64,000 nt of DNA, taken from Bacillota bacterium. GTDB taxonomy: Bacteria > Bacillota > UBA4882 > UBA8346. Position numbers and translations under genes: made by a program. Location: assembly GCA_029776205.1 (NCBI GenBank), contig JAKOTQ010000043.1, positions 62,001 to 126,000 of the forward strand, written 5' to 3'. Positions 32,590 to 43,303 of the stretch are shown here, in pieces (position 1 is the stretch's first letter; every line of letters starts with the position of its first letter). The notes under the pieces are model-generated. The model saw only the letters and a list, made by a program, of their open reading frames with translations. It searched no databases and had not been told where the DNA came from.

Positions 32590-32781
32590 AGTGCCCTGCT
32601 TTGTGCGTGTTCAAGCTGAAATTGTTATGAACCAACACCTATACCTAGGGAGTCTGGACTCCGTTGATGGTGTGTAGGCCGTCTTCGCCACGGAACACTA
32701 AAGTCGACGGGAGGACACCCACCTGCCTGCGCAGGTTCAGGTAACTTTCAGCATAACGGCAAAGTGGGGTGCTTTTTTTAT
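32590..32781 (+). ncRNA. ssrS: 6S RNA
   Basis: A long rod-like RNA. The closing stem is 10 bp including G-U pairs (32590-32599 with 32764-32773) and is followed directly by a T run. Internal segments match what I remember of clostridial 6S RNAs: GAACCAACACCTATACC, AGGACACCCACCTGC, GCAGGTTCAGG and CATAACGGCAAAGTGGGG. 6S RNA mimics an open promoter and binds sigma-A RNA polymerase in stationary phase. Context supports it: in B. subtilis the 6S-1 gene follows hisS-aspS, and in E. coli ssrS precedes a 5-formyl-THF cyclo-ligase gene; both neighbours are present here. Confidence 0.85.
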
Positions 32782-40316: not shown

Positions 40317-40393
40317 CACGAAAGATGCCATCCGCACATACTTTAATACTATTATGGAGAACCCGTAATTACGTATTAGAGGAGGCAAAAAGG

Positions 40394-41119
40394 ATGGCGA
40401 TTCCTTTATTAGGGCCGCTCTTGGAACTATTGATAGCCGGATTTATGTATGTGTTCGGCTATATCTCCAACAACAATGTGTTTCCTTTGCCTTTATCCGA
40501 AAAAGAAGAAAGTGAACTCTTGATCCGGCTTGAGAAGGGAGATGAAGAAGCCCGAAACATTCTCATCGAACGTAATTTGCGGTTGGTTGCCCATATTGTC
40601 AAAAAGTTTGATACCACCGGAGAAGATATCGATGATCTCATTTCCATCGGAACGATTGGGTTGATCAAAGGCATCAGTACGTTTAACAGGAATCGTAACA
40701 CCCGCTTGGCTACGTATGCAGCACGGTGTATCGAAAATGAAATTTTAATGCATTTGCGGTCCATCAAAAAAAATAAGAATGACTTGTTGTTGTATGATCC
40801 GATTGGAGCGGATAAAGAAGGGAATGAGATCACACTTTTGGATATTTTGGATACCGGTGCGGAGGTTGTGGCCGAAGAAGTGGAGATGCTTCTGGAAGAG
40901 GAGAAACTTCGGGAACGCATCGCCCAATTGAGCAAACGGGAAAAAAAGGTGATCGAACTTCGATACGGATTAATTGACGGAATCAACAAAACCCAGCGCG
41001 AAATCTCAAAAATGTTGGGAATTTCCCGTTCCTATGTCTCCCGAATCGAAAAGAAAGCCTTGCGAAAACTATTTTCGGATCTTAACACGCCCGGAGACAA
41101 TAAGGTTGAACCGAAATAA
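40394..41119 (+). CDS. sigK: Sporulation sigma factor SigK
   Basis: 241 aa sigma-70 family factor for late mother-cell sporulation genes. It closely follows B. subtilis SigK: hydrophobic N-terminal pro-sequence ([19 protein letters not shown]), region 2 [12 protein letters not shown] and [32 protein letters not shown], and region 4 [20 protein letters not shown]. The gene is continuous, with no skin-type insertion. ATG 40394 has GGAGG 8 nt upstream. Control would be by processing of the pro-sequence, as in Bacillus (family knowledge). Confidence 0.93.
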
Positions 41120-41153: not shown

Positions 41154-41189
41154 ATGTATATTTAGAAGATAAATGGTCAATCTATAGAT

Positions 41190-41336
41190 AGAGATTTGTA
41201 ATAGCCGCAGTGCTCGATAATGGCTTTGCCTTATTGCATCCGTCATTATCGGCGATGAACAGATCGTTATGGAAATAGTGGTTCCTTTGATCCATCCTGA
41301 TCTGAACAGAATCTTTTATGGCTATTGCAAATCTCT
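41190..41336 (+). ncRNA. Candidate three-way-junction RNA (or MITE-like element)
   Basis: A 17-bp closing stem (41190-41206 with 41320-41336; all pairs Watson-Crick except one G-U) encloses two further stems: CGATAATG (41215-41222) with CATTATCG (41244-41251), and CAGATC (41260-41265) with GATCTG (41299-41304), the latter continued by ATGGA/TCCAT. No open reading frame of note. I do not recognise an RNA family. The terminal repeats could also be those of a small non-autonomous mobile element; no target duplication is evident. Confidence 0.5.
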
Positions 41337-41433
41337 CATCTTTTAATTGCTTGGAAGATAAAGTATATGCGTTCTATCGACAAATAATTACATATAATTC
41401 TCAGTTTTGACAAAATATCGCCCTATTGGGAAT

Positions 41434-41462
41434 TTTACACTTATATTTGATAAGGGTATAAT
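41434..41462 (+). promoter_or_regulatory. Sigma-A type promoter of the 41469-41674 RNA
   Basis: TTTACA (41434-41439), 17-bp spacer, TATAAT (41457-41462). The start site would be near 41469, exactly where the first hairpin of the predicted RNA begins. Confidence 0.7.
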
Positions 41463-41468
41463 CTTTTA

Positions 41469-41674
41469 TAGAGTCCCTGTTGTTTGTGCGGGAATCTAAC
41501 GAGGGACTTATAGAGCATTATTCAGACACAGGCGCCGGTGGACTTAATAATGCTCGCCCCACGGTTGGCGATCGCCGGCAGCCAAACGTGGGTTTCGTTT
41601 TTAAAGTTTTCTTTAGTTATCTTAAAGTTATTTTTAATGTTCGTAAACCACCTGACTGGTGGTTACTTTTTTTT
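41469..41674 (+). ncRNA. Candidate independent structured ncRNA upstream of guaB
   Basis: Starts at a good promoter and ends at an intrinsic terminator. Stems: AGTCCCT/AGGGACT (41472-41478, 41502-41508); GAGCATTATT/AATAATGCTC (41513-41522, 41546-41555), perfect 10 bp; CCCACG/CGTGGG (41558-41563, 41587-41592) enclosing TTGGC/GCCAA, followed by a T-rich stretch that could be a first terminator. A short in-frame ORF across it looks like chance. It is about 120 nt before guaB, which has its own promoter, so it is probably a free RNA; a riboswitch-like leader is the alternative. No family recognised. Confidence 0.55.
41646..41674 (+). terminator. Intrinsic terminator of the candidate ncRNA
   Basis: AACCACC and GGTGGTT pair around TGACT, followed by AC and eight T residues. 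Confidence 0.85.
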
Positions 41675-41733: not shown

Positions 41734-41762
41734 TTGACTTTCGTCAAAAATAACTATAGAAT
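41734..41762 (+). promoter_or_regulatory. Sigma-A type promoter for guaB
   Basis: TTGACT (41734-41739), 17-bp spacer, TAGAAT (41757-41762). It gives a short leader of about 30 nt before the gene and makes guaB independent of the upstream RNA. Confidence 0.65.
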
Positions 41763-41797: not shown

Positions 41798-43303
41798 GTG
41801 GCCATCTACTACAATGAGCCCAGCCGAACTTTTAGTGAATACTTACTTATACCTAACTTAACGACGAAAGAATGTATTCCGGATAATGTCAGCCTGCGTA
41901 CGCCAATTACCAAATTCAAAGAAAACGGGGCAAAACCGTTGTATATCAATCTTCCGTTCGCTTCAGCGATTATGCAGTCTGTATCCGATCATAATATGGC
42001 GATTGCTTTGGCTCGCTGCGGTGGCATTTCATTTATCTATGGATCTCAATCCATTGAAGATCAAGCGGAAATGGTACGGAAAGTTAAGAGCTACAAAGCG
42101 GGATTTGTGCCCAGTGATTCTAATTTAAAACCGGACGATACCTTGGCTGATGTTATTGCATTAACCAAGAGAACCGGCCATTCAACCATTGCTATTACTG
42201 AAGACGGATCTCCCAACGGTAAACTTCTCGGTATTGTCACCAGCCGGGATTATCGGGTCAGCAAGTATCCAATGACCATGAAGATTCACGAGTTCATGAC
42301 CCCGTTGTCTCATTTGATCTGCGGCAAAGAAGGAATTACTCTTTCTGAAGCCAACGACCTGATTTGGCAACATAAACTCAACTGTCTACCCATCGTAAAT
42401 GACGAAGGGAACCTGCGTTATCTCGTATTCCGCAAAGATTATACTTCCCATAAAGAAAACCCTCTTGAGCTTTTGGATGAACATAAACGTTTAGTCGTCG
42501 GTGCCGGTATCAATACCCGGGATTATAAAGAACGGGTACCGGTGTTGTTGGATGCTGGCGTTGATGTTCTTTGTATCGACTCTTCCGACGGTTTTAGCGA
42601 ATGGCAAGGGGAGACCCTCCAATGGGTTAAAAAGACCTATGGCGATGATGTTAAAATCGGCGGCGGGAATGTGGTCGATGCAGAAGGATTCCGTTATTTA
42701 GTGGAGAGTGGCGCTGATTTTGTCAAAGTTGGCATCGGTGGTGGATCGATCTGCATCACCCGGGAGCAAAAAGGTATCGGCCGTGGACAAGCAACGGCTG
42801 TCATCGAAGTGGCTAAAGCCCGGGATGAATATTATAAAGAAACCGGAATTTATGTGCCGATTTGCTCCGATGGCGGCATTGTTCATGATTATCATATCGT
42901 GTTGGCATTGGCCATGGGCGCTGATTTTGTGATGTTAGGCCGTTATTTTGCTCGGTTTGACGAAAGTCCGGGACGGAAAGTGAAAAAGGGAATGACCTAT
43001 GTGAAAGAGTACTGGGGTGAAGGTTCCAACCGGGCCCGCAACTGGCAACGTTATGATATGGGCGGCGACAGTAAATTATCCTTTGAAGAAGGCGTTGATT
43101 CCTATGTGCCGTATGCAGGAAGCCTTAAGGATAATTTGGATTTAACCGTCAGCAAAATCAAATCGACCATGTGCAACTGCGGAGCTCTTTCTATTGCCGA
43201 ACTTCAGAAAAAAGCCCGGATCACATTGGTATCCGCCATTGGAATCCGTGAGGGTAGTGCCCATGATGTTATTCTCAAGCAAGAAGATGAATCCATCGAT
43301 TGA
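41798..43303 (+). CDS. guaB: IMP dehydrogenase, Tritrichomonas-like type
   Basis: Oxidises IMP to XMP with NAD+, the committed step to GMP; 501 aa. TIM-barrel core with a CBS pair inserted at about residues 105-220. The catalytic Cys lies in [18 protein letters not shown] near residue 318. The mobile flap has the Arg-Tyr dyad in ARNWQRYD. Ordinary bacterial GuaB has GPGSICTTR at the catalytic loop; the form seen here, with the N-terminal [16 protein letters not shown] and the C-terminal STMCNCGAL, is very close to my memory of the Tritrichomonas foetus enzyme (503 aa, Cys319). CAAGGAGGG precedes the GTG start. Confidence 0.95.

Follow-up and report, generated by a model that had tools for sequence, protein, structure and literature searches.

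A covarying stand-alone RNA with palindromic hairpin loops from an uncultured class of Bacillota: a candidate kissing homodimer

In the window (the whole 64,000-nucleotide stretch of DNA analysed here, from a 2.7-Mb draft genome that comprises 124 contigs), a compact structured segment lies between a sigK-like sporulation gene and guaB. This locus raises the question of whether the segment is a control element of guaB or the product of a gene of its own and, in the latter case, in what form that product might act.

The transcript and its hairpins

The elements of the segment and its upstream neighbour are as follows (window coordinates):

40325-41119, + strand: gene of a sigK-like sporulation sigma factor, located upstream of the ncRNA, a neighbourhood kept in family f1
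41434-41462, + strand: promoter, with -35 box TTTACA, 17-nt spacer and -10 box TATAAT (11 of 12 consensus positions)
41469-41674, + strand: predicted ncRNA transcript of ~205 nt, its ends placed from the promoter and terminator, with covariance-model matches in relatives
41472-41508, + strand: hairpin P1, AGTCCCT/AGGGACT (both-side changes in 7 of 7 modelled pairs; 94.6% of cells paired)
41513-41555, + strand: hairpin P2, GAGCATTATT..AATAATGCTC, with an asymmetric 2-nt bulge (both-side changes in 13 of 16 pairs)
41558-41592, + strand: hairpin P3, CCCACG..CGTGGG, inner TGGC/GCCA (both-side changes in 9 of 10 pairs of the two helices)
41646-41674, + strand: intrinsic terminator, with stem AACCACC/GGTGGTT at 41646-41664 and T's up to 41674

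A preliminary description had pointed to a near-consensus promoter opening a transcript at the first of three stable hairpins and to a strong terminator about 205 nt downstream, and our mapping bears out each of these elements: the start predicted from the promoter falls at ~41469, P1 begins at 41472, and the three hairpins occupy 41472-41592, between the promoter and the terminator. The folding energy of the ncRNA lies 3.3 standard deviations below that of shuffled sequences (z -3.3; as good in 1 of 200). The same promoter spacing, hairpins and terminator are also present in relatives, with the -10 box 6-9 nt 5' of P1 in 35 of 40 homologues and, by a scan, a terminator 31-75 nt 3' of P3/core in 36 of 40. 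As a separate observation, the letters CCACC/GGTGG of the terminator stem (41646-41664 in the window, and in the homologues) are near-constant across copies, beyond what termination needs; on this sequence pattern, an extra role for the stem is possible.

Distribution, covariation and novelty of the family

A DNA search recovered the ncRNA in three further genomes of the window's family; in the alignment of these four sequences the promoter, hairpins, loops and terminator are all conserved and, although it was made without a model, it already contains 7 pairs with both-side changes. A covariance model built from these sequences (R1) was positive in 23 of 149 genomes, all within the window's class. 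A second model (R2), built from those 23 genomes, was positive in 26 of the 29 class genomes and yielded 40 copies in total, often two per genome, with a second paralogue (copy 2) in families f2 and f4. A third (R3), built from all 40 copies, returned the same 26 genomes plus one chance match inside a coding gene. Two of the class genomes without a copy are incomplete (72% and 89%), and the third belongs to f3. Beyond the class, evenly drawn samples of ~400 Bacillota genomes (two draws with a large overlap) gave just two weak, chance-like matches. Weak matches that lay beyond the class or would have been additional copies (G190, G307, G008, the second in G006, G029 and others) were rejected, being without the loops or in apparent coding sequences. 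Within Bacillota, the family occupies one uncultured class, nearly all sequenced members of which carry it. The carriers include four 'Bacillota bacterium' MAGs (JPMR_maxbin.032, AS08sgBPME_427, AS06rmzACSIP_96 and AS09scLD_416), and the code AS08sgBPME appears in a biogas-reactor genome paper (PMC7038595).

The comparative covariation confirms that the structure is conserved in these relatives: in the 40-sequence alignment, which was fitted to the covariance model and is hence biased towards the modelled structure, 92.4% of the cells are paired and 29 of 33 pairs are changed on both sides. The double-changed cells number 274, whereas shuffles give 80 and sliding the partners gives no more than 56, and the covariation score is 0.598 as against 0.236 in shuffles, with none of 500 shuffles reaching the observed value, although shuffle tests of this kind are inflated by the relatedness of the sequences. 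In P1 the letters are free to change while pairing is retained, and the sequences of both P1 and P3 differ widely between members, as with GTTTCTTCATT/AATGGAGAAAC in G002.

These patterns bear on whether the conserved entity is RNA at all. P2 has the form of an inverted repeat around a palindromic centre, as would be expected of DNA-level inverted repeats, either a protein-binding palindrome or a mobile element; however, its bulge is asymmetric, P1 and P3 covary while their sequences change freely, G-U pairs are used without restriction, a promoter and a terminator are attached, and each carrier genome has one or two copies, whose positions are stable. We regard a DNA-level explanation as barely credible. 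A peptide-coding gene was likewise rejected, because the core ranges between 99 and 140 nt in length and its stops fall in different frames, which leaves no shared reading frame.

A different local fold is predicted in copy 1 of f2 (e.g. L108, L110 and L111), where the 5' half of P2 can form a hairpin GCxTCA..TGAx'GC. This alternative competes with P2 and itself covaries, x-x' being G-C in 10, T-A in 3 and A-T in 2; judging by these sequences, it may act as a switch, serve as an intermediate of folding or be coincidental.

Searches of Rfam 15 down to an E-value of 10 gave no relevant match to the ncRNA, the best chance scores being far below the gathering thresholds, and none to 8 divergent homologues. 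The covariance models of OLE, GOLLD and ROOL matched neither the ncRNA nor these homologues, and that of raiA (RF03072) did not match the ncRNA and exceeded the cut-off in none of the 29 class genomes. Rfam families, raiA, 6S and T-box among them, are thereby ruled out as its identity, in agreement with the earlier failure to fit it to known patterns. The sole Rfam 15 match in the window is a 6S RNA elsewhere (32590-32774, + strand; RF00013, 97 bits, E 3e-18), which is likewise a free-standing structured RNA but has an unrelated fold, and whose model the ncRNA does not match. A partial T-box leader match, under the gathering score at 53.8 bits, was also seen at a contig end (L104, 1782-1899, + strand). 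We found no prior description of the ncRNA in the open-licence literature.

The ncRNA has the features of stand-alone structured bacterial ncRNAs, namely its own promoter and terminator and a covarying structure in relatives. Given the both-side base-pair changes and the conserved promoter and terminator, we hold it to be almost certainly real and the founding case of a new family. The initial suggestion of a new small RNA is thus sustained: Rfam gives no match, the RNA has a promoter and terminator to itself, and its structure covaries strongly throughout one bacterial class.

Gene context and mode of action

The downstream neighbour in the window and its promoter are as follows:

41734-41762, + strand: guaB's own promoter, TTGACT-17-TAGAAT, also found in the sister genome (L002)
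41798-43303, + strand: guaB, downstream of the ncRNA in the window's genus only

The separate promoter that had been proposed for guaB is therefore repeated in a second genome. In every f1 genome seen, the ncRNA lies 3' of sigK and is co-oriented with it, and the gene that follows the ncRNA differs. It is guaB in only two of the 26 carrier genomes, those of the window and its sister G001, both from f1, whereas another f1 genome (G005) has the order sigK-RNA-nrdR-nrdD. The order in f2 is SAH hydrolase-mtaD-RNA-(FAD oxidoreductase)-nrdR-nrdD, and in f5 the ncRNA is also upstream of nrdR-nrdD. Since G005 combines the f1 and f2 contexts, copy 1 can be regarded as one locus by descent. Copy 2 is upstream of a PHP-domain gene in 11 genomes and of ribD in one, and in three genomes a convergent hydrogenase-subunit gene lies opposite it.

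The preliminary description had also entertained a riboswitch-like attenuator tied to GMP synthesis. On synteny, we reject a guanine/guaB attenuator: closely related guaB genes have no copy of the ncRNA nearby, and in the 24 other carrier genomes it sits beside unrelated genes, some of them convergent. A more general version, in which the RNA is a cis-acting leader (riboswitch or attenuator) of whichever gene comes next, be it guaB here or nrdR or the PHP gene elsewhere, would account for the co-oriented gene often found 3' of it, namely nrdR-nrdD in f2, f5 and the one f1 genome, and PHP after copy 2. However, the terminator closes the ncRNA in nearly all copies, guaB is served by its own promoter, the next gene is lineage-dependent, several genera have an extra gene intervening before nrdR, and a convergent gene lies opposite three copies. 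The absence of a constant downstream gene argues against a cis-acting leader, which we consider very improbable, and in favor of a stand-alone gene. We are highly confident that the ncRNA acts in trans rather than on guaB.

A second element was observed in the spacer between sigK and the ncRNA. The window has a shrunken copy of it at 41187-41340, whereas full copies are found elsewhere:

L002:1740-2170, minus strand: full copy of the spacer element, with further full copies in L197, L198 and L199

The element is ~390 nt long, with long nested hairpins and a terminal closing helix of ~17 bp, and folds at -202 kcal/mol (z -16). Its four full copies keep 94% of the pairs; 26 pairs contain 55 double-changed cells between them, as against at most 13 when slid. 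Five f1 genomes each contain one to four matches to it, and no Rfam family matches it. A gapless repeat search of the window's spacer detected just the terminal inverted repeat, while folding revealed far more. Two readings fit it, a mobile palindromic repeat and a large ornate RNA.

Palindromic loops and a predicted homodimer

Two of the hairpin loops carry six-letter palindromes:

41531-41536, + strand: P2 loop palindrome GGCGCC, a predicted symmetric kissing contact (palindromic in 39 of 40 copies)
41574-41579, + strand: P3 loop palindrome GCCGGC, invariant (the same in 40 of 40 copies, in both paralogues)

The P2 hexamer is GGCGCC in 26 copies, GGGCCC in 9, GACGTC in 3 and the wobble form GGTGCC in 1, so that in RNA letters there are four palindromic types (GGCGCC, GGGCCC, GACGUC and the wobble GGUGCC); the single copy with a broken palindrome, GACGCC, is that of L169. 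Treated as a symmetric self-complement, the hexamer pairs in 99.2% of cells and has 12 double-changed cells, which possibly reflect just two evolutionary events (copy 2 of g8/g14 and copy 1 of g3/g5/g6); neither its pairing percentage nor its covariation score was equalled in any of 500 shuffles. In all 40 copies P2 is self-complementary over 6 nt or more, while as a control a 6-nt palindrome inside P1 is found in just 6 of 40. Adjacent central letters cannot pair within one loop, and the covariation of the P2 loop therefore points to pairing between two molecules. The P3 loop provides no such covariation test, because GCCGGC never varies.

A loop of this type, a hairpin loop with a 6-nt palindrome of which alternative palindromic versions exist, is found in the HIV-1 dimerisation initiation site; this is an element of a viral genome, and we claim no homology with it. 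The closer parallels are the stand-alone bacterial RNAs OLE, GOLLD and ROOL, whose symmetric palindromic kissing loops are likewise backed by palindrome-preserving covariation. Covariation from palindrome to palindrome is seen in OLE L9.3 (GGCC/GAUC/AGCU) and GOLLD L21a (GC/CG), and that of adjacent loop letters supported the kissing bridges of OLE and GOLLD in the cryo-EM paper (PMC12286853 section 8). P2 displays the sequence mark of homo-oligomers of this kind, a symmetric loop with palindrome-preserving covariation (PMC12286853 section 8). However, those homo-oligomeric RNAs are ornate, whereas the ncRNA is ~205 nt long with three simple hairpins, and its oligomerisation is a prediction. 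In being a structured non-coding RNA of ~200 nt in Bacillota it resembles raiA RNA (RF03072), which differs in having been resolved as a monomer and in having a model that does not match the ncRNA.

The two palindromes might alternatively meet within one molecule, the P2 loop pairing with the P3 loop as a pseudoknot in a compact, trans-acting monomer. Such pairing over 6-8 bp can be drawn in the window and in many copy-1 sequences; yet no more than 4 bp are available to it in 17 of the 40 copies, among them all nine GGGCCC copies, in which P3 stays GCCGGC, so that it cannot be the conserved interaction and is excluded as a general feature. P2 self-complementarity, in contrast, is retained throughout. 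We consider the monomer improbable.

A trans-acting sRNA that pairs with mRNA targets through seeds in its loops or its A/U-rich 3' linker, the palindromes being incidental or serving target contacts, is also unlikely in our estimation, if somewhat less so than the monomer. A stand-alone gene with a strong promoter and an intrinsic terminator, the invariance of the P3 loop and the different P2 loops of the paralogues would all suit it; but target seeds offer no reason for palindromic symmetry to be kept through letter changes, all the hairpins are strongly structured, and the linker is poorly conserved.

We favor, with moderate confidence, a stand-alone gene for a trans-acting structured RNA of ~205 nt that dimerises through kissing loops. 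In this dimer the P2 loop would pair with its counterpart on a second molecule, a contact to which, given the covariation, we attach the same moderate confidence. The invariant P3 palindrome would probably add a second symmetric contact, generating a closed dimer or a chain. The two paralogues of genus g8 have palindromes that do not match each other (GGCGCC in copy 1, GGGCCC in copy 2), and cross-pairing between them would be prevented. The fuller arrangement, with two palindromic kissing contacts and self-recognition by the paralogues, is a more tentative proposal that we rate below even chances from the sequences at hand. The dimer would be the working form, and our best inference for its cellular role is a housekeeping scaffold or a protein-binding RNA.

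To our knowledge, natural RNA-only homo-oligomers are few and large. The present family adds a covarying ncRNA that is found in nearly every genome of a class and yet is missing from Rfam. If the proposed dimer is true, it would stand out by its small size among natural bacterial RNA-only homo-oligomers and would have evolutionary support: an RNA of 205 nt with a loop that remains palindromic despite letter changes would offer a compact and easily tested case, in which the paralogues constitute a natural experiment in self-recognition.
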